DNA of 33,952 bases from a virus. The stretch lies in the IMG/VR virus record IMGVR_UViG_3300035180_001005, positions 1 to 33,952 of that record; one strand, written 5' to 3'. Positions 1,029 to 33,952 of the stretch are shown in pieces; the stretch's first letter is position 1, and the number at the start of each line of letters is the position of its first letter. A program made the translations under genes and the position numbers. The notes beneath the pieces are model-generated. The model was not told the DNA's origin, made no database searches, and saw only the letters and a list, made by a program, of their open reading frames with translations.

Positions 1029-1050
1029 GGGTGACACGCCCGGCAATATG
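1029..1050 (+). repeat. 22-bp head-block boundary repeat, copy 1
   Basis: This copy is identical to 31190-31211 and 32723-32744. It begins GGGTGACACGCC and ends GGCAATATG. It sits between the capsid terminator and the next gene, 41 bases before the ATG at 1092. Like copy 3 it is followed by GGGACCGAAG (here directly, at 1051-1060) and by an AGGAG-type SD. The sequence is not a recognisable sigma-70 promoter and has no strong dyad. Confidence 0.95.
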
Positions 1051-16164: not shown

Positions 16165-17490
16165 GTGGCCGTCATCGTCACACGCGGGCTCGGCGACAGC
16201 AGCGATCTTCTCGTCACTTGGGGCCTGGGCACATCCGTCACGCAGGCCACGTGGGAGCTTGCCCTCGCGAGCGAGTCCAAGTCCGCAGCCAGCGCCACGG
16301 GCTCCGTCGTCCATGCCACGTGGGAGCTTGCGCTTGCGAGCGAGGCAAAGAGCGCAGTAGCCGCTAGCGGCGCCAGAACTCCGGCAGGCGTTACCCATGA
16401 ACTCGCGCTCGCCAGCGAGGCCGTCAGTGCCGCCTCGGCTACCGGCTCTGTCACGCAGGCCGTATGGGAACTCGCCCTAGCCTCTGAGGCGAAGTCGGAA
16501 GCCGGCGTGTCCGGCACGGTTACGCACGCAGTATGGGAACTTGCGCTCACGAGCGAGGCGAAGTCGGCCGTAGCCGCAGCAGCCGGCGCAACACAGGCCA
16601 CGTGGGAACTTGCGATTGCGAGTGAGGCCAAGTCGCACGTCGCAGCGACTGGCAGCGTCGCCCACGCGGTATGGGAGCTAGCGCTTGCCAGCGAAGCGAA
16701 GTCCGCGGCCAGCGCTACTGGCGTCAGCGCTAAGGCCGTATGGGAGCTCGCGCTCGCGTCCGAGTCCAAGAGCGTCGTAGCGGCTGCCGGCTCTGTCACA
16801 CAGGCCACGTGGGAGCTCGCCCTCGAGAGTGAAGCCGTCAGCGCAGTGGCCGCCGCCGCCGGCGTCACGCACGCGGTATGGGAGCTCGCGCTGGCGAACG
16901 AGGCGGCGTCTGCAGTCGCGGCAACCGGGCAGAAGCAGGCCGCGCAGACGCACGAGCTCGCCTTTGCGAGCGAGGCGAAGAGCGCCGTAGGGGGCGCCGG
17001 CGCCGTCACTCATGCCGTGTGGGAGCTCGGCCTCGCAGGCGAGGCCAAGAGCGCCGTCAGCGTCAGCGGCTCCGTCGTCCACGCGACATGGGAACTCGCC
17101 CTCGCCTCAGAGGCGAAGAGCAGCGTTGCCTGCGCCGGGCGCGTGGTTCATGCGACGTGGGAGCTCATGCTTGCCAGCGAGGCCACGTCTGCCGTCGTTG
17201 TCACGGCGGCGGTGCATCGGACGCTGGAGCTGAACTGCACCGGCGAGGCGAAGTCGGCGGCGGCCGTGACCGCGATCGTCACGCACGCAACATGGGAGCT
17301 GGCGCTCACCAGTCAGAGCAGGAGCGCTGCATTCGCCTGCGGCTCGGTAACGTGGAGGATCAGTGGCATCACCTGGAGCGTTGACGGGCTCGTGCAGACT
17401 TGGACGTGCCATATGCCGGGCAACGCATGGAAGACAAGCCGCGGGGACGACTGGAGCGTCCGCGCCTACGCACTGGAGGACGGGCCGTGA
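16165..17490 (+). CDS. Repeat protein with 16 units of about 23 residues, probable fibre
   Basis: This 441-residue protein starts at GTG 16165, directly after the previous stop. After 24 residues the segment 16237-17346 (370 residues) is 16 tandem units, most of them exactly 23 residues long. Conserved positions are V.HA.WELALASEAKSAVAA.G. Units 3 and 11 lack the A.W step, and units 2 and 10 carry short insertions. A 48-residue cap with several Trp follows (ISGITWSV, then QTWTCHMPGNAWKTSRGDDWSV). No helix-rich or enzymatic family is evident. Strand-turn periodicity suggests a beta-solenoid or trimeric fibre shaft. It sits among fibre-type genes, overlapped by the next gene (GTGA). Confidence 0.7.
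   Translation: MAVIVTRGLGDSSDLLVTWGLGTSVTQATWELALASESKSAASATGSVVHATWELALASEAKSAVAASGARTPAGVTHELALASEAVSAASATGSVTQAVWELALASEAKSEAGVSGTVTHAVWELALTSEAKSAVAAAAGATQATWELAIASEAKSHVAATGSVAHAVWELALASEAKSAASATGVSAKAVWELALASESKSVVAAAGSVTQATWELALESEAVSAVAAAAGVTHAVWELALANEAASAVAATGQKQAAQTHELAFASEAKSAVGGAGAVTHAVWELGLAGEAKSAVSVSGSVVHATWELALASEAKSSVACAGRVVHATWELMLASEATSAVVVTAAVHRTLELNCTGEAKSAAAVTAIVTHATWELALTSQSRSAAFACGSVTWRISGITWSVDGLVQTWTCHMPGNAWKTSRGDDWSVRAYALEDGP
16237..17346 (+). repeat. Tandem coding repeats, 16 units of about 69 bp
   Basis: The units are well conserved as protein but not as DNA. WELALASEAKS is written with different Leu, Ala, Glu and Lys codons in each unit, and its serines alternate between AGC and TCN codons (compare units near 16321 and 16468). 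This means the units are old or are kept apart at DNA level while the protein sequence is under selection. Confidence 0.9.
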
Positions 17491-17828: not shown

Positions 17829-17915
17829 CAGGTGACGCGCCTTATACCCTTCTGAGGGTCAGGCGGGCGCGGCCGGGTCCGGTCGCGTAGCCGCGAGCTC
17901 ACCGGGAGGACTCCC
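17829..17915. promoter_or_regulatory. Leader of second lysis cassette with SD hairpin
   Basis: This 87-base gap contains a weak stem ACCCT/AGGGT (17846-17859, no T run). At 17903-17916 it has a perfect inverted repeat CGGGAG-GA-CTCCCG that includes the SD (GGGAGGA, 17904-17910) and the first base of the GTG start. Folding would hide the SD. This suggests translational control of the following lysis gene. Confidence 0.55.
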
Positions 17916-18572
17916 GTGAGGATCTCATTGACCATGGCGATCGCGCTGCTCACCATCGGCCTGATCGTGGTCATGGCCGCGCTGGCGATCGCTGCGCTCG
18001 CCAACGCTTCGCCGGCCTCTCCGGCGCCGACGGCCACGCCGAGCGCGTCGCCCCCGCCAGTTCCCGCCTCCTCGGCGACCGTGCGCTCCGCCCTTGCCAA
18101 TCAGCGCCGCGCTGAGAGGGCGAGAAGGGACCTCTCCCGCGTCCGCAGGTGCTTTGGCGACCCTGCGCCCGTCCGCGTCTCTCCTGCGCCCAGGCGGCTC
18201 GGGAGCGAGGCAGCATGGGCGCGGGCGTCGCGGCGCTGGCGAGCGCAGGCGACGGGCTGGCGGGCGAAGACGAAGGCGGGCATTGCGAAGATGCGCCATC
18301 CTGGCGGGAGCGGGGCGGCGCGGTGGTGGCCGGCGGCCTTGTACTGCGGCTGGAAGCCGTCGCTGAAGTCCTGGTTCTGCTACGTCGTGAACCGTGAATC
18401 CGGCGGCTGCCCGCAGGCGGTCAACGCATCGTCGCAGTGCCGGGGCCTGCTCCAGCTCCATCCCTGCCACTGGGGAAGCAAGGGCAGCGCCTGGATACGT
18501 GATGTGTTCAACCAGATCGAGCTCGGCTGGCGGCTCTACCGCGAGGCCGGGCCTTCACCTTGGGCTCTTTGA
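17916..18572 (+). CDS. Membrane-anchored or secreted transglycosylase-like hydrolase
   Basis: This 218-residue protein starts at GTG 17916 (SD GGGAGGA). Residues about 4-29 form a hydrophobic, Ala-rich signal anchor (SLTMAIALLTIGLIVVMAAL). A Pro/Ala/Ser linker follows (31-55), then a basic helical middle. At about 150-218 there is a lysozyme/SLT-like fold: VVNRESGGCPQAVN with presumed catalytic Glu161, CRGLLQLHPCHW, and LGWRLYREAGPSPWAL at the end. Cys pairs may form disulfides outside the cell. The weakly hydrophobic anchor is compatible with a signal-arrest-release endolysin. It is the second wall hydrolase of the phage and is next to a holin. Confidence 0.7.
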   Translation: MRISLTMAIALLTIGLIVVMAALAIAALANASPASPAPTATPSASPPPVPASSATVRSALANQRRAERARRDLSRVRRCFGDPAPVRVSPAPRRLGSEAAWARASRRWRAQATGWRAKTKAGIAKMRHPGGSGAARWWPAALYCGWKPSLKSWFCYVVNRESGGCPQAVNASSQCRGLLQLHPCHWGSKGSAWIRDVFNQIELGWRLYREAGPSPWAL

Positions 18573-18810: not shown

Positions 18811-18849
18811 GCCCCGGCCCTCGTCCTCAGCGGGGGCCGGGGCGTTTTT
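18811..18849 (+). terminator. Rho-independent terminator of the late genes
   Basis: A 10-bp GC-only stem (18811-18820 with 18834-18843) with a 13-base loop is followed by GTTTTT (18844-18849). It closes the late/lysis block 30 bases after the holin gene and insulates it from the promoter at 18875. Confidence 0.9.
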
Positions 18850-18874
18850 CGTCTTCCCCCGCCAAGATTGCCTA

Positions 18875-18902
18875 TTGACACCGTAAACCCACCGGCTAGA
18901 AT
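18875..18902 (+). promoter_or_regulatory. Near-consensus sigma-70-type promoter, early genes
   Basis: TTGACA (18875-18880) and TAGAAT (18897-18902) are separated by 16 bp. This is the best promoter match noticed in the window. It lies between the late terminator and the first gene of the opposite half of the genome, so it probably starts early transcription, with a start near 18909. Confidence 0.85.
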
Positions 18903-26822: not shown

Positions 26823-27131
26823 ATGAGTGAGATGCCTGCGACGAAGGCAGCGAAGGACTGGCACTGGTGGACGACGTCGCCATATGCAGAGGCGAGCACC
26901 GTGAGAGAGTGCATCCGTGAGGCACAGGCCCGCATTGCAGAGCTGGAGGGAGAGCTGGAGAGGGCGAAGGTCTGTGGAAGCTGCGCGCACTGGGGGCCCG
27001 TGCTGTTCGAGTGCACTTTGGTATCCGTACACGACCTGCAAAGACCGTGGAGCGGGGAGTGCTACAACCTTGACCCCTGCCACTTCACGCCGTCGCGCTG
27101 GACTGCCTGCGGCGAAGAGAGGAGCGAGTAA
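26823..27131 (+). CDS. Cysteine-rich small protein
   Basis: This 102-residue protein has its start at ATG 26823, chosen because of SD GGGAGGGA (26810-26817); GTG 26802 in frame lacks an SD. A coiled coil (RECIREAQARIAELEGELERA) is followed by a Cys-rich end (CGSCAHW, then C, C and DPC), probably zinc-binding. The last codons (GEERSE) are part of the repeated start-associated sequence. Confidence 0.65.
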   Translation: MSEMPATKAAKDWHWWTTSPYAEASTVRECIREAQARIAELEGELERAKVCGSCAHWGPVLFECTLVSVHDLQRPWSGECYNLDPCHFTPSRWTACGEERSE

Positions 27132-27133
27132 TG
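27112..27133 (+). repeat. Start-associated repeat, copy 1
   Basis: GAAGAGAGGAGCGAGTAATG lies at the junction of two small genes. It holds the end of one coding region, the SD and the next ATG. It is related to the four copies listed below. Confidence 0.75.
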
Positions 27134-27355
27134 TGTCTTTTCGATTCCGTGTACGTTCCCTGCCCGGACTGTGGCAAGCAGTACGAGTTCCAATCAAAGG
27201 CAGGCGGCCCGCATCTCAATAGCTATACGCTTGACGACGCTCCAGGAGTCATCCTTGCGGACCTGAACGGGGCGACCGCGCGCTGTGACTGCGGCACGAC
27301 GTTCGGAATATACACCAACATACAGGTCTCCGTCTGGGCCGACGACTGCGACTAG
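27131..27355 (+). CDS. Small zinc-ribbon protein
   Basis: This 74-residue protein has its ATG at 27131, sharing one base with the preceding TAA. It has CPDCG (11-15) and CDCG (52-55) with a beta-rich middle (GVILADLNGATAR). It is probably a four-cysteine zinc ribbon. Function unknown; one of a row of small genes joined by a repeated SD/start sequence. Confidence 0.7.
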   Translation: MCLFDSVYVPCPDCGKQYEFQSKAGGPHLNSYTLDDAPGVILADLNGATARCDCGTTFGIYTNIQVSVWADDCD

Positions 27356-27372
27356 GAAGAGAGCGAGTCATG
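27353..27372 (+). repeat. Start-associated repeat, copy 2
   Basis: TAGGAAGAGAGCGAGTCATG carries the SD and ATG of the gene at 27370. Here it begins with the stop codon of the previous gene. Confidence 0.75.
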
Positions 27373-27624
27373 AGCATCCGATACGACGCAGAACGCGAAA
27401 GCTTCGTGGACGGGAAGATGTACGTGCCACCGGCCGTCATGGCCGAGATGCTGGAGCAGGCCAAGGCCGAGGTGGAGACGCTGGACCGAACCTTGCGCAT
27501 CGCCGCCGCCGACTACTGGCGCGAGCAGATGGACGCCCTCGCCACCGACCATCCAGTTGACCACATCATCGACGCGACCATCGCAAAGTGGATTGCCCGC
27601 GCCGAGGAAGGGAGCGAGTCATGA
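27370..27624 (+). CDS. Small helical protein, unknown function
   Basis: This 84-residue protein starts at ATG 27370. A short strand (SFVDGKMYVPPAVMAE) is followed by long helices (MLEQAKAEVETLDRTLRI, then DATIAKWIARAEE). The C-terminus EEGSES is encoded by the next start-associated repeat. No family recognised. Confidence 0.65.
   Translation: MSIRYDAERESFVDGKMYVPPAVMAEMLEQAKAEVETLDRTLRIAAADYWREQMDALATDHPVDHIIDATIAKWIARAEEGSES
27601..27623 (+). repeat. Start-associated repeat, copy 3
   Basis: GCCGAGGAAGGGAGCGAGTC plus ATG. The first part is coding for the end of the upstream gene, and the last part is the SD and ATG at 27621. Confidence 0.85.
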
Positions 27625-27782
27625 GCAACGCGCATCCGGAGTTGGTGCCTGCGCCGAGGAAGGGAGCAAACAATGATGGGATGGAAGTGCCCCGTGTGCG
27701 GACGCGGCCTCTCGCCATATATGCCCGTCTGCCCGTGCGGCGGGATGGGGCAGCAGTCTACCTACGGCACCACAACGAATGA
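27621..27782 (+). CDS. Short reading frame overlapped by the next gene, possibly a remnant
   Basis: A 53-codon frame follows a good SD and ATG 27621. Only the first 17 codons are free; the rest overlaps the next gene in another frame, and its product there is unremarkable (basic, no motif). It may be a relic of a small gene whose body was lost by recombination between repeat copies 3 and 4, which are only 52 bases apart. It could still be translated. Confidence 0.35.
   Translation: MSNAHPELVPAPRKGANNDGMEVPRVRTRPLAIYARLPVRRDGAAVYLRHHNE
27653..27675 (+). repeat. Start-associated repeat, copy 4
   Basis: The first 15 bases, GCCGAGGAAGGGAGC, equal copy 3. The following spacer is AAACA instead of GAGTC, then ATG 27673. 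Confidence 0.8.
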
Positions 27783-27918
27783 ATGCGATCATGCGTGGGT
27801 GACCTATGGTCTCCCCGCCCCGCACCGTCGGTGCATAAGGTGCGGGACATGGGCGCCGCTGCCGGAAGAAACAGGAGAAACCGGGACCGCTCGTGCCGAG
27901 GAAAGGAGCGAGTCATGA
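27673..27918 (+). CDS. Small zinc-finger protein
   Basis: This 81-residue protein starts at ATG 27673 (a second ATG follows at 27676). It has CPVCG, CPCGG, CDHAW and CIRCG, giving enough Cys/His for two zinc sites. The C-terminus ARAEERSES is encoded by the fifth start-associated repeat. Function unknown. Confidence 0.65.
   Translation: MMGWKCPVCGRGLSPYMPVCPCGGMGQQSTYGTTTNECDHAWVTYGLPAPHRRCIRCGTWAPLPEETGETGTARAEERSES
27895..27917 (+). repeat. Start-associated repeat, copy 5
   Basis: GCCGAGGAAAGGAGCGAGTC plus ATG 27915. It differs from copy 3 at one base, and has the same layout: end of the upstream gene, SD and ATG. Confidence 0.85.
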
Positions 27919-28718
27919 GCGTCATCGTGGACACCCTCGAAGGCACCACCGACCGCGTGGCCGTGGCCATCGAGCGCATCCGCACGTTCGAGCCGGAGGA
28001 GGGGTACTACGTGGCGTTCAGCGGGGGCAAGGACTCCCAAGTAGCACTTGACCTCGTGGAGCGGTCTGGCGTGCGGTTCGATGCTCACATGAGCCTCACC
28101 ACTGTAGACCCGCCCGAGGTGCTCGCCTTTGTCCGTCAAAAGTATGACGGCACTGTAACGCTAGAGAAGCCAGACACGTCCATGTTCAAGCTCATCCAGA
28201 GTAATGGCCCGCCGACCAGACGGCATCGCTTTTGCTGCAAGGCTCTCAAAGAGCGCGGAGGAGAGGGTCGGCTCGTCGTCACTGGCGTCAGGGCGCAGGA
28301 AAGCAGGAGACGTGCAGGGAGAGGGATGGTCGAGGCGTGCAAGTTCGGCTCTGGTAAGCGATTCCTACACCCGATCATCGACTGGGAAGACGCCGATGTG
28401 TGGGAGTACATCCACGGTCGCAGGTTGGCCTACTGCTCACTTTACGACGAAGGATTCACGCGCCTTGGCTGCGTCATGTGCCCGATGGGCGGCACCAAAC
28501 AGACGAGCCGACACGCTGAGCGGTGGCCGAAGTTCGCGGCCATGTATCTCCGGGCGATCACGAAGTTCTGGGTAGCACGAGAAGAGAAGCTGTCTCCTCG
28601 CTGGGCTTCTGGTCAAGAGATGTACGACTGGTGGCTGAGCGGGAAATCAGTCGACAAGTGGCGGGCTGGATACGATCCGGATCAACAAGGAAGTTCGCGC
28701 CGAGGGATGGGTGAGTGA
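27915..28718 (+). CDS. PAPS reductase / DndC-like PP-loop protein
   Basis: This 267-residue protein starts at ATG 27915 in the start-associated repeat (ATGA overlap). The ATP pyrophosphatase PP-loop SGGKDS is at 36-41 in YYVAFSGGKDSQVALDLV. Further features are RFCCKALKE (Cys107, Cys108), GVRAQESRRR, PIIDWEDADVWEYI, and GCVMCPMGG (Cys186, Cys189). The four cysteines are placed like those of iron-sulfur-binding PAPS reductase-like and DndC-like proteins. Members activate sulfur or other substrates by adenylation. No other dnd or cysteine pathway gene is present, so the target (DNA, tRNA or metabolism) is unknown. Confidence 0.85.
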   Translation: MSVIVDTLEGTTDRVAVAIERIRTFEPEEGYYVAFSGGKDSQVALDLVERSGVRFDAHMSLTTVDPPEVLAFVRQKYDGTVTLEKPDTSMFKLIQSNGPPTRRHRFCCKALKERGGEGRLVVTGVRAQESRRRAGRGMVEACKFGSGKRFLHPIIDWEDADVWEYIHGRRLAYCSLYDEGFTRLGCVMCPMGGTKQTSRHAERWPKFAAMYLRAITKFWVAREEKLSPRWASGQEMYDWWLSGKSVDKWRAGYDPDQQGSSRRGMGE

Positions 28719-28888
28719 GCTCGGCAATGGCGAGTCTAACCGGAGCGGGCGCGCTGAACGCCGCAGGGGGTAGGGGGGTCTCATCACTGCAGGCCCGCAA
28801 CGCTGACCCTGCCAGCCGCCCCGCGCAAATTTCCGCGGGTTGGGCGATTGGGGGTACGAAAGCGTGACGAAAGCGGCATACTGTGGTC
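28719..28888. other. 170-bp gap before terminase block, candidate cos/pac region
   Basis: This is the longest gene-poor gap. It holds a G-rich stretch (AGGGGGTAGGGGGG near 28771), a hairpin CCCGCG-CAAATTTC-CGCGGG (28820-28839, no T run) and no good promoter. Packaging sites often lie just upstream of the small terminase gene. This is a position-based inference. Confidence 0.35.
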
Positions 28889-29254
28889 ATGATCTGCGCC
28901 GGCCCCCAATGCCAGAACGAGGTCGTGCCCACCGGCATCGGCCGGCCGCCGATCTACTGCTCGGACCGCTGCAGGAAAAGGGCCTACAGACTCCGCAAGG
29001 CCGAGGCGAGCGGACGCACGCACCGAACGGCGGCAGCCCCGGAATCCCCGCCGGCTCCGGCGGCGCCCCCGCCGCCCCCGCGCCCCGCGAAACTGGATGA
29101 GCAGGTGGCCGTGGCATTGCTTGAAGCCGAACGTCTCTCTGGAGCGCTGATCAGGCTCGGGTCGCAGGCTCAGCCGCGCCTTGCCTGGCGCTGCCGTATG
29201 CTCGGCGACGTGATCGCCTGCGCGATCGATGACTACTTCGAGGGCGTACTGTGA
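28889..29254 (+). CDS. Zinc-finger protein upstream of terminase
   Basis: This 121-residue protein starts at ATG 28889; GTG 28883 is an alternative, and neither has a strong SD. The N-terminus MICAGPQCQNEV, then PPIYCSDRCRKRAYRLRK, is a known small zinc-binding motif (four Cys) of phage proteins. A Pro/Ala linker (about 45-67) leads to a helical C-terminus (LDEQVAVALLEAERLSGALI). It may bind DNA near the packaging site. Its stop overlaps the terminase small subunit GTG. Confidence 0.65.
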   Translation: MICAGPQCQNEVVPTGIGRPPIYCSDRCRKRAYRLRKAEASGRTHRTAAAPESPPAPAAPPPPPRPAKLDEQVAVALLEAERLSGALIRLGSQAQPRLAWRCRMLGDVIACAIDDYFEGVL

Positions 29255-29739
29255 GCGGCCCGCCGCCGAAGGCAAGGACGCGCCCGGAAGTCAGCAAGCG
29301 GCCTCCCCGCGGGCAAGAGAAGGCGGCCTTGACGAGGGCGGTGCCGATTGGGGAGCTGGCGGAGACGCAGCCTCCCGCCGACATGCCGAAGCAGGTCCGC
29401 GAAGTCTGGAGCGCCTGCGTCACGGAGATGGGCGCAAACCGGCACCTGCGCGCTCCCGACCTTGTCCTTTTGCGCGCCTACTGCGAGGCCACCTACCTGC
29501 ACCTACAAGCAAGCGCTATGATTCACGCCCAGGGCCTGATGACAGAGGGGGCTTACGGGCCGGTCGTCAATCCCATGGTCAAGGTGCAGAAGGACGCCGC
29601 CACTACCATGCGCCATCTCTCCGACGTGCTCGGCCTCAACCCGCTGGCGCGGATTCGCGGCGGCCTGCTCGAGATCGCCGGCCAGAGCATGGTCCTGGAC
29701 ATCCGCGAACGTCTCGTCTCCAAGCTGGCGAAAGGCTGA
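29251..29739 (+). CDS. terS: Terminase small subunit (P27-like)
   Basis: This 162-residue protein starts at GTG 29251 (GTGA overlap). After a basic, disordered N-terminus, PPADMPKQVREVWSACVTEMG, then RHLRAPDLVLLRAYCEATYL and GAYGPVVNPMVKVQKDAATTM, is the P27-type small terminase signature, ending with a helical part (LGLNPLARIR). It recognises the packaging site and hands DNA to the large subunit, encoded 4 bases downstream. Confidence 0.85.
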   Translation: MSGPPPKARTRPEVSKRPPRGQEKAALTRAVPIGELAETQPPADMPKQVREVWSACVTEMGANRHLRAPDLVLLRAYCEATYLHLQASAMIHAQGLMTEGAYGPVVNPMVKVQKDAATTMRHLSDVLGLNPLARIRGGLLEIAGQSMVLDIRERLVSKLAKG

Positions 29740-29743
29740 CCAC

Positions 29744-31195
29744 ATGGCCGGTCGCAAGCGCATCTCCGGAGAACTGTCGGCGGAGCTCATCCGCCTCTTC
29801 ATGGCGGAACATCTGCGCTTCACCGGCGGCCGCTGGGCGGGCAAGCCCTTCGTCCTCGAGCCCTGGCAGTACAAGCATATGATCAAGCCGCTGTTTGGCA
29901 CCCTGGACGCGCGGGGCAAGCGCGTCTACCGAGAGGCGCTGTTCGGACTGCCGCGCTGGGGCGGCAAGAGCCAGGTCGCCGCCGGGCTCGCCCTGGCCGT
30001 GATGTTCACAGAGCCCGTCTACGAGGGCGAGTATTACGTCGTAGCGACCACGCGCCAGCAGGCCGGAATCGTCTTCGACAAGGCCAAGCGCATGGTGCTC
30101 TCCGACCCGCAGTTGCGCGCCGCGACGCATGTCTACCGCAACCTCATCGAGGTGGAAGAGACCGGGGCGATCTTCCGCGTCCTGCCCTGGGACGCCGACA
30201 CGGCGCAGGGATTCCACCCCACGTGCTGCATCATCGACGAGTACCACGTGCACCGGAACGCCTCAATGCGCGAGGCGATGCTATCCGGCATGGTCGGCAG
30301 CGACAACGGCCTGCTAATCACCATCTCGACCGCCGGACCGGAGCGCAAGGGCCCGCTGTGGGATCTTCTGCGCACGGCGCCGAAGGACCCGCGGGCCTAC
30401 GTCTACTGGTGCGGCGCCGGAGACGATGAGGACGGACACGACCCCAAGGCCTGGCGCCGGGCCAACCCGTCGAAGTGGATCACGATGAAGATGCTCCGTG
30501 ATCAGTACCGCACGCTGCCCTTCCCCGTCTTCGAACGTCTGCACCTGAACCGCTTCCCAAGCTCAGGCACAAACCGCGCCTATCCAGCCGACCTCTGGCA
30601 CGCCTGCAGCGCGCCTCCGGACTTCGACCCCGAACGCCCGACGATGCTCGGACTCGACGCCTCCTGGACGCGCGACACGACAGCGCTCGTCATGGTGCAG
30701 CGGAGCGACGCCGGCCGGCATTCCGTCTGGTCACAGGTCTGGCGGAAGGACGCGGCCATGGGTCACATCGACCACGAGGCCGTGGAGGCGAAGATTGTCG
30801 AGCTCTGCGCCGCCTACAACGTGGTCCGCATCGCCTGCGACCCGAACTACTTCACGCGATCCATGCTCAAGCTCGAGCATGAGTTCCACCTGCCGATCGA
30901 GGAGTTCCCGCAGGACGCGAAGCGCATGAGCGCCGCGAGCATGGCACTCTACGACGTGATCCTCGAGGGCCGCATCGCTCACGGCGGCGACGCCGAGCTG
31001 ACCGATCAGGTGCTGAACGCCGGCGTCAAGGCGACGCCTTACGGCTGGCGCATCACGCGCATCGAGGAGGAGCGCAAGGTGGACGCCGCGGTCGCCCTGG
31101 CGATGGCGGTCTACCTTGCAGAAGCGGAGGGGGCCACCTTCGCTCCGAGCTTCGCCGAGACAGGCGGCATCTGGACGCTCAAGCTCGACGGGTGA
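29744..31195 (+). CDS. terL: Terminase large subunit
   Basis: This 483-residue packaging motor starts at ATG 29744. The ATPase part has a deviant Walker A GLPRWGGKS (68-76), Walker B CIIDEYH (D165, E166) and the coupling motif TISTAG. The nuclease part has Asp305 in GLDAS, Asp366 in CDPNYF and Asp447 in KVDAAVALAMA. The order and motifs are those of HK97-type Terminase_1 proteins. The TGA stop is inside the 22-bp boundary repeat (31190-31211). Confidence 0.93.
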   Translation: MAGRKRISGELSAELIRLFMAEHLRFTGGRWAGKPFVLEPWQYKHMIKPLFGTLDARGKRVYREALFGLPRWGGKSQVAAGLALAVMFTEPVYEGEYYVVATTRQQAGIVFDKAKRMVLSDPQLRAATHVYRNLIEVEETGAIFRVLPWDADTAQGFHPTCCIIDEYHVHRNASMREAMLSGMVGSDNGLLITISTAGPERKGPLWDLLRTAPKDPRAYVYWCGAGDDEDGHDPKAWRRANPSKWITMKMLRDQYRTLPFPVFERLHLNRFPSSGTNRAYPADLWHACSAPPDFDPERPTMLGLDASWTRDTTALVMVQRSDAGRHSVWSQVWRKDAAMGHIDHEAVEAKIVELCAAYNVVRIACDPNYFTRSMLKLEHEFHLPIEEFPQDAKRMSAASMALYDVILEGRIAHGGDAELTDQVLNAGVKATPYGWRITRIEEERKVDAAVALAMAVYLAEAEGATFAPSFAETGGIWTLKLDG

Positions 31196-31211
31196 CACGC
31201 CCGGCAATATG
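31190..31211 (+). repeat. 22-bp head-block boundary repeat, copy 2
   Basis: This copy is identical to the other two. It contains the large terminase stop (TGA 31193-31195) and ends with an ATG in the portal frame, 30 bases before the portal GTG chosen here. Confidence 0.95.
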
Positions 31212-31241
31212 AGCCTTAGGTCCCGACCTCGGAGGTGCGGC

Positions 31242-32786
31242 GTGTGGAACCCGTTGCGGCTGTTCGCCCGCAATGAGGCGGAGGAGTACTCACTCAGTGA
31301 CGACAATGTGCTCAATGCGTTCTACGGGGCACTCTCACAACTCTCGTCCTCTGGCGTGACCGTCAACGAGCAGACGGCCATGCGCTCCACGGCCGTCCTC
31401 GCTTGCCTGATTGTCCGCGCACAGACCGTATCTACGCTGCCCGTCGATGTGCTCCGCCAGGAATCAGACGGAAGTAAGACGCACGACATGAGCGCGCCGG
31501 AGTACCGGCTTCTGGCGATTGCTCCGAACGACCTCATGACGTCGAAAGAGTTTTGGCGCTGGAAGCAGATCCGCGAGGATACCACCGGCAACGCCTACGC
31601 GCGCATCGTCTGGGATGGCTATGAGCCGCGCGAGATCTGGCCGCTGACCGGGCCGCAGCCGGCGCTCGTGATTGACCGCGCGACGCGCACCGCGGCCTGG
31701 AACTACACCGGCGACAACTTCACGCCCGCCGGGCCGATTCCGCTGCGCGATGTGATGCACTTCAAGAGTGCTGTGCTGACGTCTCCCTATGAGGGACGCA
31801 GCCTGATCAGCCTTGCGAGCGAGGCGATCGGCGTCTCGATTGGAACGGAGCAGTTCTTCGCTCGCCTGCTCGGGAACGGCTCGCACTTCCCGGGCTACCT
31901 CGAGACGGACCGCGACCTCACTCCCGAGGACTACAAGGCGATCAGTGAGCAACTGAAGGGTTTCTCCGGCCTGCTCAACGCCGGCCAGGTCCGGATATTC
32001 GACCGCGGCCTGACGTACAAGCAGAACGACATGAGCCTGAAGGACGCGCAGCTCGTTGAGCAGATGCGCTGGCAGCTTCAGCAAATCTGCAGCGTGTTCC
32101 GCGTCCCTATGGCGGCCGTGCAGGACCTCACGAACGGCACCTACTCGAACACCGAGCAGCAGGACCTCTCACTGGCGAAGTACACCGCCCAGCCTATCTG
32201 CGTCGACACCGAGGCCGTGATCCGACACCGCCTGTTCGCCATGAAGCCCGCCTACTCGGCGCGCTTCAACATCGACGCCATGCTGCGGGGCGACTACAAG
32301 ACGCGCACCGAGGGAGACGCCATGCTGGTGCGCGCCGGCATCATCGCCCCGAACGAGGGCCGCGCGCATTATGACCTCAACCCGGTGAAGGGTCTCGAAC
32401 GGCCGAGAGCAGAGCTGACGCTCGGCACGGTGACAGAAGACGGCCTCATCCACGCGCCTGCGGCCCCACTGGACGCGCCGCCGCCGGCAGCCCAGCCGGC
32501 GACCGCAAGCGCAATGCTCGCGCCGATTCTGAGCGACGCTGCCGACAGGATTCGCGCCCGATTCGAGGCCGACGCCAAGCGCGGGCGCAGCCGCGCGGAC
32601 ACTGAGAAGTTCGCGAGTGAGAAGCTCGCGCCGATCGCGGCGGCGTTTGGTGCCGCAGGAATCCCGTTCGATGCCGCCGCATTCCTGGCGGATGCGCTCG
32701 AGAAGAATCCCGTGGCGGGCTCGGGTGACACGCCCGGCAATATGGAGCCGCCAGCCTCCGGGACCGAAGCAGGAGTGACGCCGTGA
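31242..32786 (+). CDS. Portal protein (HK97-type)
   Basis: This 514-residue protein forms the DNA entry ring of the head. GTG 31242 was chosen for its SD GGAGGT (31231-31236). ATG 31209, at the end of the boundary repeat, would add 11 residues but lacks an SD. Typical HK97 portal features include VNEQTAMRSTAVLACLIVRA near the N-terminus, LPVDVLRQ, GNAYARIVWDG, LRDVMHFKS, SPYEGRSLIS and the core RVPMAAVQDLTNGTYSNTEQQ. The last 80 residues are Ala/Pro-rich and helical. The final part (GDTPGNM) is encoded by copy 3 of the repeat. Its stop overlaps the protease GTG. Confidence 0.92.
   Translation: MWNPLRLFARNEAEEYSLSDDNVLNAFYGALSQLSSSGVTVNEQTAMRSTAVLACLIVRAQTVSTLPVDVLRQESDGSKTHDMSAPEYRLLAIAPNDLMTSKEFWRWKQIREDTTGNAYARIVWDGYEPREIWPLTGPQPALVIDRATRTAAWNYTGDNFTPAGPIPLRDVMHFKSAVLTSPYEGRSLISLASEAIGVSIGTEQFFARLLGNGSHFPGYLETDRDLTPEDYKAISEQLKGFSGLLNAGQVRIFDRGLTYKQNDMSLKDAQLVEQMRWQLQQICSVFRVPMAAVQDLTNGTYSNTEQQDLSLAKYTAQPICVDTEAVIRHRLFAMKPAYSARFNIDAMLRGDYKTRTEGDAMLVRAGIIAPNEGRAHYDLNPVKGLERPRAELTLGTVTEDGLIHAPAAPLDAPPPAAQPATASAMLAPILSDAADRIRARFEADAKRGRSRADTEKFASEKLAPIAAAFGAAGIPFDAAAFLADALEKNPVAGSGDTPGNMEPPASGTEAGVTP
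32723..32744 (+). repeat. 22-bp head-block boundary repeat, copy 3
   Basis: This copy is identical to copies 1 and 2. It is coding for GDTPGNM near the portal C-terminus. The protease GTG follows after 38 bases, with GGGACCGAAG (32760-32769) and SD AGGAG between, as in copy 1. Confidence 0.95.
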
Positions 32787-33622
32787 AGCAACGCCGGTTC
32801 TACGAGATCAAAAACGAAGCCGGGAGTAGCTCGGCCGATGTGTGGATCTATGACCGCATCGGCGCCGACTTATGGAGCGAGGGCGTCGACGCCAAGAGCT
32901 TCGTCCAGGAGCTCGCGGCGCTGAAGGTCGACGAGATTGCCCTGCATATCAACTCGCCGGGCGGATCTGTGTTCGATGGGCAGGCGATCTATACCGCGCT
33001 GCGTAACCATCCGGCCGTCGTCACGAGCTACGTGGACGGCTGGGCCGCGTCAATCGCCTCCGTCGTGGCGCTGGCCGGCGACACTGTCGTGATGGCAAGC
33101 AACGCACTGTTTATGATTCACGAGCCGTCCGGAGCGGCCGCCGGCACCGCCGACGACATGCGCAAGATGGCAGAGATCCTCGACGCCGTCGCGGAGACGA
33201 TCCTCGGCGTCTACGAGGCCAAGACCGGCCGGTCGCGCGACGAACTCATGGCGGCCATGGCCGAAGAGACCTGGCTGTCCGCCGGCGAGGCGCTCGACTG
33301 GGGATTCGCCGACGAGGTCGCCGGACCGATCGAGGTTGCCGCCGAGTTCGACCTCGAGGGACTCGAGTTCCGCAGACCTCCGGCCATTGCCGCGGCTCCG
33401 GAGGCAGTCGGGCGCACGCTCTCTGCCGCGAATGAGGCCAAGCTTCATGATGCTCGCAACCTCATCGACGAGGTTCTTTCCCAGGTAGCGGAGAACGCCG
33501 CCGGAGACGCACCGTCTGGACCCGCACAGGAGCCGGACGGCATGGCCGCAGAGGTCGCGCCGCCGCTCGCGTACCGAGCTGCCATTGCCGTACACCGTTC
33601 GCACCCAAAGGGGGAAGCGTGA
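32783..33622 (+). CDS. ClpP-like prohead protease
   Basis: This 279-residue serine protease matures the capsid. GTG 32783 (SD AGGAG) overlaps the portal stop. The ClpP/S14-like domain covers about 1-185: INSPGGSVFDGQAIY (oxyanion region), the nucleophile Ser90 in GWAASIAS and His113 in FMIHEPS. The third catalytic residue is less clear; an acidic residue near EETWLSAGEA (161-162) occupies the usual Asp position. The C-terminal 90 residues are Ala/Pro-rich and variable, and may act in scaffolding. Its stop overlaps the capsid GTG. Confidence 0.9.
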   Translation: MKQRRFYEIKNEAGSSSADVWIYDRIGADLWSEGVDAKSFVQELAALKVDEIALHINSPGGSVFDGQAIYTALRNHPAVVTSYVDGWAASIASVVALAGDTVVMASNALFMIHEPSGAAAGTADDMRKMAEILDAVAETILGVYEAKTGRSRDELMAAMAEETWLSAGEALDWGFADEVAGPIEVAAEFDLEGLEFRRPPAIAAAPEAVGRTLSAANEAKLHDARNLIDEVLSQVAENAAGDAPSGPAQEPDGMAAEVAPPLAYRAAIAVHRSHPKGEA

Positions 33623-33952
33623 AGCTCTACGACTACAGGAAACTCGAGGAGGACGTGAAGCCGCTCCAGGCTCGCGTAACCGCCCTCGCCGCGCTTGAGA
33701 ACCCGAGCGCCGCCGAGCAGGCTGAAGCGGCCTCGCTCATGGGCCAGATTTCTGCGATTGAGTCAATTGCCGGCCAGATGAAGGACCACGAACTCGCCGA
33801 GCTGCGCGCCATGGTCGCCGCCGGAGAGACGGTGACTGACGGCGGCGAGACGCCGGACCAGAAGCACCGCGCCGCGTTCATGAACTACCTGCGGACCGGC
33901 GACGACGGCCCGCTCAAGATCGAGAACGCATCGCTGTCCTACACGGACGCGA
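33619..33952 (+). CDS. Major capsid protein, HK97 fold (5' part; continues at 1-966)
   Basis: This is the start of the capsid gene at GTG 33619 (SD GGGGGAAG, GTGA overlap). The first 69 codons before the terminal overlap encode a charged, helical delta-like region (YRKLEEDVKPLQARVTALAA, then AEQAEAASLMGQISAIESIAG). This part is normally removed by the prohead protease. From 33826 the sequence repeats bases 1-127, in the same reading phase. See the entry at 1-966. Confidence 0.9.
   Translation, partial: MKLYDYRKLEEDVKPLQARVTALAALENPSAAEQAEAASLMGQISAIESIAGQMKDHELAELRAMVAAGETVTDGGETPDQKHRAAFMNYLRTGDDGPLKIENASLSYTDA
33826..33952. repeat. Terminal direct repeat (right copy), circular assembly overlap
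   Basis: Identical to 1-127. With one copy removed the circle measures 33,825 bp. Confidence 0.95.

Follow-up and report, generated by a model that had tools for sequence, protein, structure and literature searches.

What do three identical copies of a short sequence do at the borders of a phage's head-gene blocks? The 22-mer GGGTGACACGCCCGGCAATATG occurs in three exact copies on the + strand (1029-1050, 31190-31211 and 32723-32744) of the window, by which we mean the whole 33,952-nt stretch of viral DNA analysed here (IMG/VR record IMGVR_UViG_3300035180_001005). An earlier note, made from the letters of the DNA, had drawn attention to these copies and listed as possible roles a recombination boundary for swapping head modules, a phage-specific promoter or RNA signal, and a start-associated element like those of cluster K mycobacteriophages. 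Relatives of this phage strongly support the promoter, through the conserved core of the motif, its strand, the gene borders at which it lies and its register with start codons. Judging by these features, each copy is very probably a late promoter used by the host RNA polymerase.

The repeat and its gene borders

The copies lie exactly where the earlier note had placed them. No match to the 22-mer occurred in 100 dinucleotide shuffles, and the window holds no further site with up to three mismatches. By its 127-bp end repeat, the window is a phage genome that is circular and 33,825 bp long, so that the copies do bracket the portal gene, and the protease and capsid genes, around the circle as had been claimed.

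Every long gene of the window is on the + strand. Around the circle, the order starts with a gene for a small zinc-finger protein with C-terminal helices (28889-29254), followed by the small (29251-29739; PF05119) and large (TerL, 29744-31195; PF03354/PF20441) subunits of the terminase, copy 2, the portal protein (31242-32786; PF04860), copy 3, a ClpP-type prohead protease (32783-33622; PF00574) and the major capsid protein (PF05065). The first part of the capsid gene (33619-33952) runs on around the circle to 966, its remainder being found at 7-966. The capsid stop is separated from copy 1 by a terminator-like hairpin (985-1028, + strand) with a perfect 12-bp stem and a T-rich tail; this hairpin is retained in a relative with its inner bases changed. 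The genes after copy 1 begin with one of 67 aa (1086-1289), next to which comes a head-tail adaptor (1291-2151).

The contexts of the copies differ, as the earlier note had correctly described. Copy 1 is intergenic, copy 2 crosses the TerL stop (GGG TGA), and copy 3 lies in frame within the C-terminus of the portal protein, where it encodes GDTPGNM. The distances to the following start codons (30, 38, and 35 or 41 nt) and the presence of GGGACCGAAG downstream of copies 1 and 3 also proved right. The 22-mer can be dissected into GGGTGAC, the spacer ACGCCCGG, CAATAT and a final G. The spacer too is identical in all three copies, which promoter function would not require.

Searches of GTDB genomes, with a 20-mer and with TerL, returned no match and no relative, respectively, and Rfam had no match either. 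In phages and plasmids, BLAST of a 30-mer gave only weak hits that look like chance, for instance to DTPGN codons in ParA genes. A baseplate gene of Mu-like type (L009, 1612-1628) shares 20 of the 22 bases and likewise encodes GDTPGN; we judged it a coincidence, although the match, 28 of 30 bases around copy 3, is unusually long.

A core motif shared by distant relatives

All three copies are retained letter for letter in two further IMG/VR records that are about 94% identical to the window, but this says little because few changes are expected in 66 bases. A search of viral contigs confined the exact 22-mer to these three near-identical phages, and it is absent from phages found by a TerL search whose TerL is 70-73% identical. 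The latter have a repeat of their own at these borders, similarly spaced. In one of them (L018) the repeat stands at 1734, 3297 and 5456, giving spacings of 1563 and 2159, compared with 1533 and 2131 in the window. Alignment of the two kinds of repeat gave GGCGTGAC-N8-CANNNT, with GTGAC-N8-CANNNT as the shared core.

After the core had been defined in the window group, it was counted in 19 loci for which TerL relatedness was the sole criterion of choice, most of them with TerL 37-64% identical. The ratio of sites on the coding strand to those on the opposite strand was 23:1 in the window group and 39:1 in the 19 more distant loci (shuffle averages 1.3 and 2.75), counts that are not independent events, as the sites have a common ancestry. 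GTGAC alone gave near-equal totals on both strands. In the distant loci, other spacings between box and hexamer showed no comparable coding-strand excess; a ratio of 11:0 at spacing 19 in the window group probably arises as a by-product of homologous sites. The excess was lacking (0:2) in 19 loci with TerL about 25% identical.

In whole contigs, the sites concentrate in the packaging and head region; in the 38-kb G009, for example, all 4 lie between 7.4 and 18.3 kb. The genes that recur downstream of the core are those for the zinc-finger protein, portal, protease and connector or post-capsid proteins, that is, the four borders of the window. Many uncultured phages that are distantly related have the core in common, at corresponding gene borders. 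We found no cultured member of the motif-bearing family, and the nearest named actinophages, phiC31 and phiPsal1, showed no clear enrichment of the motif.

The earlier note had reasoned that absence of the sequence from these borders in related genomes would speak against a functional element. The exact 22-mer is indeed missing from diverged relatives, but they retain its core there, so the notion of a border element with a function survives.

Anatomy of the putative promoter

The distance between the core and the start codon is telling. An ATG lies exactly 6 nt past the hexamer in 15 of 66 non-redundant sites, compared with an average of 0.72 at other offsets (again among sites of common ancestry). 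The same register recurs at the loci of the zinc-finger gene, which were collected by HMM, independently of the motif. In 17 loci we found [G/C]TGAC-N8-NANNNT-N6-start, including one (L056) that fits with its start re-set by hand to the ATG at 83; in two further related loci (L060 and L076) the start lies 7 nt, not 6, past the hexamer. Because six bases are too few for a ribosome-binding site, CANNNT would be a -10 element spanning -12 to -7, the start codon would be +1, and GTGAC would occupy -25 to -21. The zinc-finger mRNA would then be leaderless. No standard promoter element occupies -25 to -21.

Base preferences are consistent with this anatomy. C is enriched at -1 (45/66 sites) and A at -8 (37/66), as expected at the start of a transcript and in a -10 element. 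As in host-type -10 promoters, A-11 and T-7 stand at a fixed distance from the predicted start, and the placement upstream of genes is strand-specific in both groups of loci. Evidence against the -10 reading is the C in place of T at -12, a poor fit to sigma70 -10 elements. Within the 22-mer, CAATAT would be the -10 element contacted by sigma70-type region 2. GTGAC would stand in for the -35 element, whose TTGAC core it appears to resemble after a shift of one helical turn downstream, and its reader would be a specificity factor, either an alternative factor of the host or a phage activator that acts as MotA does in T4.

Copy 2 is accordingly mapped as the predicted late promoter of the portal gene, with the box at 31192-31196, the spacer at 31197-31204, the -10 element at 31205-31210 and a predicted transcription start at about 31217; this portal border is conserved in both sets of relatives, A and B. 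In copy 3, the predicted late promoter of the protease and capsid genes, the box lies at 32725-32729 and the -10 element at 32738-32743, with a predicted start at about 32750. Copy 1, just after the terminator-like hairpin, would serve the post-capsid and connector genes (box 1031-1035, -10 element 1044-1049, predicted start about 1056). Among the motif-bearing loci, starts of portal and protease genes lie mostly 23-46 nt from the hexamer, mostly with a Shine-Dalgarno sequence.

The two blocks stand in the same register as those of sigma54 (-24/-12) promoters, TGGCACG-N4-TTGCA, and the C at -12, often part of a GC at -13/-12 in set B, would suit a variant of that type. The invariant GG at -25/-24 is absent, however. 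Every zinc-finger locus, found without the motif, has GT or CT there, and T-7, a sigma70 feature, is fixed in these loci; G occurs at -13 in 26/66 sites. A sigma54-type promoter is hence extremely improbable.

An RNA element in the leader, governing translation, stability or processing of the head-gene mRNAs, would also be expected upstream of start codons, and the 22-mer can form a 5-bp stem (GGGUG-ACA-CGCCC, -6.8 kcal/mol). Yet its folding z-scores in context are ordinary, no better than those of shuffles, and the stem is lost in relatives (GGCGTGACGGGCTTTTCA...). The combination of A-11/T-7, C-1 and a start codon at +1 fits reading of the DNA by a polymerase. This leaves the RNA signal raised in the earlier note very unlikely.

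Further copies and the extent of the late region

The count of three holds for exact copies, and the earlier note had missed a diverged fourth copy, a probable fifth and a possible sixth. The fourth, GCGTGACGAAAGCGGCATACTGTGGTC, lies ahead of the zinc-finger gene (28862-28888, + strand), with the core pattern from 28864 and the -10 element CATACT at 28877-28882. Its predicted transcription start coincides with the ATG at 28889. This ATG, rather than the GTG at 28883 chosen by the ORF finder, is probably the start of the zinc-finger gene. The fourth copy would drive the zinc-finger and terminase genes from a leaderless mRNA.

The probable fifth copy, GTGAC-N8-TACCCT (17832-17850, + strand), precedes a gene at 17916 that has only weak transglycosylase-like matches. 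In a relative, the box and the A and T of the -10 element are retained at this site and spacer bases are changed. The possible sixth, GTGAC-N8-GAGGAT (2593-2611, + strand), ends six bases ahead of the ATG at 2618, which would then be +1. It is ambiguous because its GGAGG doubles as a Shine-Dalgarno sequence and its TGA is the stop of the preceding gene; in set A, a promoter is present before the homologue of the gene at 2618.

With copies before the portal, the protease and capsid, and the post-capsid genes, each head-gene block would have a transcript start of its own, and the terminator-like hairpin would divide the capsid gene from the promoter that follows. A second terminator-like hairpin, of 14 bp and followed by TTTTT (18811-18843, + strand), is the predicted end of the late region. 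Behind it lies a canonical sigma70 promoter, TTGACA-16-TAGAAT (18875-18902, + strand), conserved in a relative and predicted to be an early promoter. The succession of terminator and promoter at 18811-18902 probably marks the late/early boundary. The late region would then span from 28.86 kb through the origin to 18.8 kb, a timing that we infer, and the early genes (about 18.9-28.8 kb) would be under the normal sigma70 promoter. Since the early genes would use such a promoter, those with GTGAC would mark the switch from early to late transcription.

Other features of these regions deserve mention. In an ORF at 16165-17490, a 69-nt (23-aa) unit is repeated about 15 times; this ORF probably encodes a tail-fibre-like protein. 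Another start-associated repeat, GCGCCGAGGAAGGGAGCGAGTCATG, occurs in five copies at 27100-27920, ahead of small early ORFs. A gene of the PAPS-reductase family (27783-28718) has a possible role in auxiliary metabolism or DNA modification.

Mosaicism at the TerL/portal border

The modules on the two sides of copy 2 have different closest relatives. For TerL, identity is 71% with set A and 40% with another phage (G020), whereas for the portal protein it is 44% with set A and 61% with G020, and for the capsid protein 50% and 67%, respectively. Portal, protease and capsid, which make up the block at 29744-33622 and 7-966 minus TerL, are closest to the group on the G020 side (60-67%). The TerL/portal border is therefore a mosaic joint, and each module seems to travel with its own promoter. 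Among the loci examined, L032-L035 come from one 61.5-kb contig (IMGVR_UViG_3300042091_002940) with two different TerL/head modules and two promoter sets, which looks as if two phages had been joined or co-assembled.

To this extent the recombination boundary proposed in the earlier note stands: module identities do change across the border at copy 2, and an element at module borders may supply short homology to phages that recombine and swap head modules. The conserved part, however, amounts to 5+2+1 bases around a variable spacer, which is poor homology for recombination, and the exact 22-mers are limited to the three near-identical phages. Spacing, strand and start-codon register fit transcription instead. 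Boundary sequences of mosaic phages resemble the repeat in their location at a mosaic joint; the repeat differs in its promoter signature and in the lack of long homology. We consider it quite unlikely that serving as a boundary is what the repeat is for, as the element appears to have a function of its own.

Candidate readers of the GTGAC box

Pfam scans of the predicted proteins of this complete circular 34-kb genome revealed no phage RNA polymerase, sigma factor or WhiB. Sigma70 region 4 had no match in the phage, with controls working, and promoters of a phage sigma factor were dropped on this ground. For a single-subunit RNA polymerase, the absence is that seen in the Pfam scans, a genome search with PF00940 having been silent in control genomes too. 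Families of the MotA/AsiA kind were likewise absent from the scanned predicted proteins, in scans that could miss a remote analogue. As there is no recognisable phage RNA polymerase or sigma factor, use of the host RNA polymerase is likely.

The same scans bear on promoters of a T7-type phage polymerase, which the repeat recalls in its length of about 22 bp, its several copies on one strand, the GGG that often follows and a loose likeness to CACTATAGGG. The scans found no polymerase domain to read them, and the sequence varies both between box and hexamer and immediately ahead of the start. We find this explanation barely credible.

For the late promoter read by the host enzyme, a phage protein to consider is the zinc-finger protein, which is conserved in nearly all the motif-bearing phages examined. 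It may be a candidate regulator or, alternatively, a terminase accessory protein. A predicted model of it had no useful match among solved structures, nor did tblastn reveal a relative among named phages. It is conceivable, though we would not count on it, that the motif belongs to a new and widespread late switch of uncultured phages, with a phage protein that reads GTGAC and redirects the host RNA polymerase; that protein might be the zinc-finger protein, which would then feed back on its own gene. In such a switch, GTGAC and the -10 element downstream of it would be only 8 bp apart, a distance shorter by one helical turn than that of a -35 element.

We found no description of the motif in the open-access literature, and the box at -25 to -21 matched no promoter class that we compared. 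If the promoter reading is correct, what seemed an odd repeat becomes regulatory code that can be read across a family of uncultured phages. The motif would mark late transcription starts, correct start codons (as in the leaderless zinc-finger genes) and sort early from late genes. Module borders of mosaic phages could be promoter sites, so that swapped head modules bring their own promoters. The geometry of the box also poses a testable question, namely which protein reads GTGAC.

Comparison with known systems

Cluster K mycobacteriophages carry SAS/ESAS, short repeats upstream of phage genes that are conserved with gene families (PMC3203893). SAS are tied to translation starts, whereas the core described here contains no Shine-Dalgarno sequence and lies either 23-46 nt from the start or in an exact leaderless register. 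With gaps of 30-41 nt in the window and no ribosome-binding site within the 22-mer, we set aside the cluster K-like role suggested in the earlier note. The GACAC sites of WhiA in Actinobacteria came into consideration as well, as the window copies contain GACAC. WhiA sites have no fixed orientation (PMC3781837). The relatives carry GTGACG, the window has no WhiB gene, and this candidate was dropped.

Host promoters of the sigma70/sigmaA type (TTGACA-N17-TATAAT) share with the motif A-11, T-7, a start seven bases past the last T of the hexamer, and the TGAC core. They differ in that TGAC is here about 10 bp, or one helical turn, closer to the -10 element and that the box starts with G (sometimes C) rather than T.

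Nearest in design are the middle promoters of T4, where a MotA box replaces the -35 element, the sigma70 -10 element is kept, and sigma is appropriated by MotA/AsiA (PMC2988021, PMC6755090). The MotA box, TGCTTtA, lies 12 ± 1 bp from the -10 element (PMC2988021), whereas GTGAC lies 8 bp from it, and the -10 elements of T4 are close to consensus, in contrast to CANNNT here. Since sequence, spacing and known factors differ, the window's promoters do not belong to the MotA class, and that they work like it is our inference. The two would have in common a phage-specific box in place of the -35 element, a retained -10 element, dispersed copies and the use of the host RNA polymerase.
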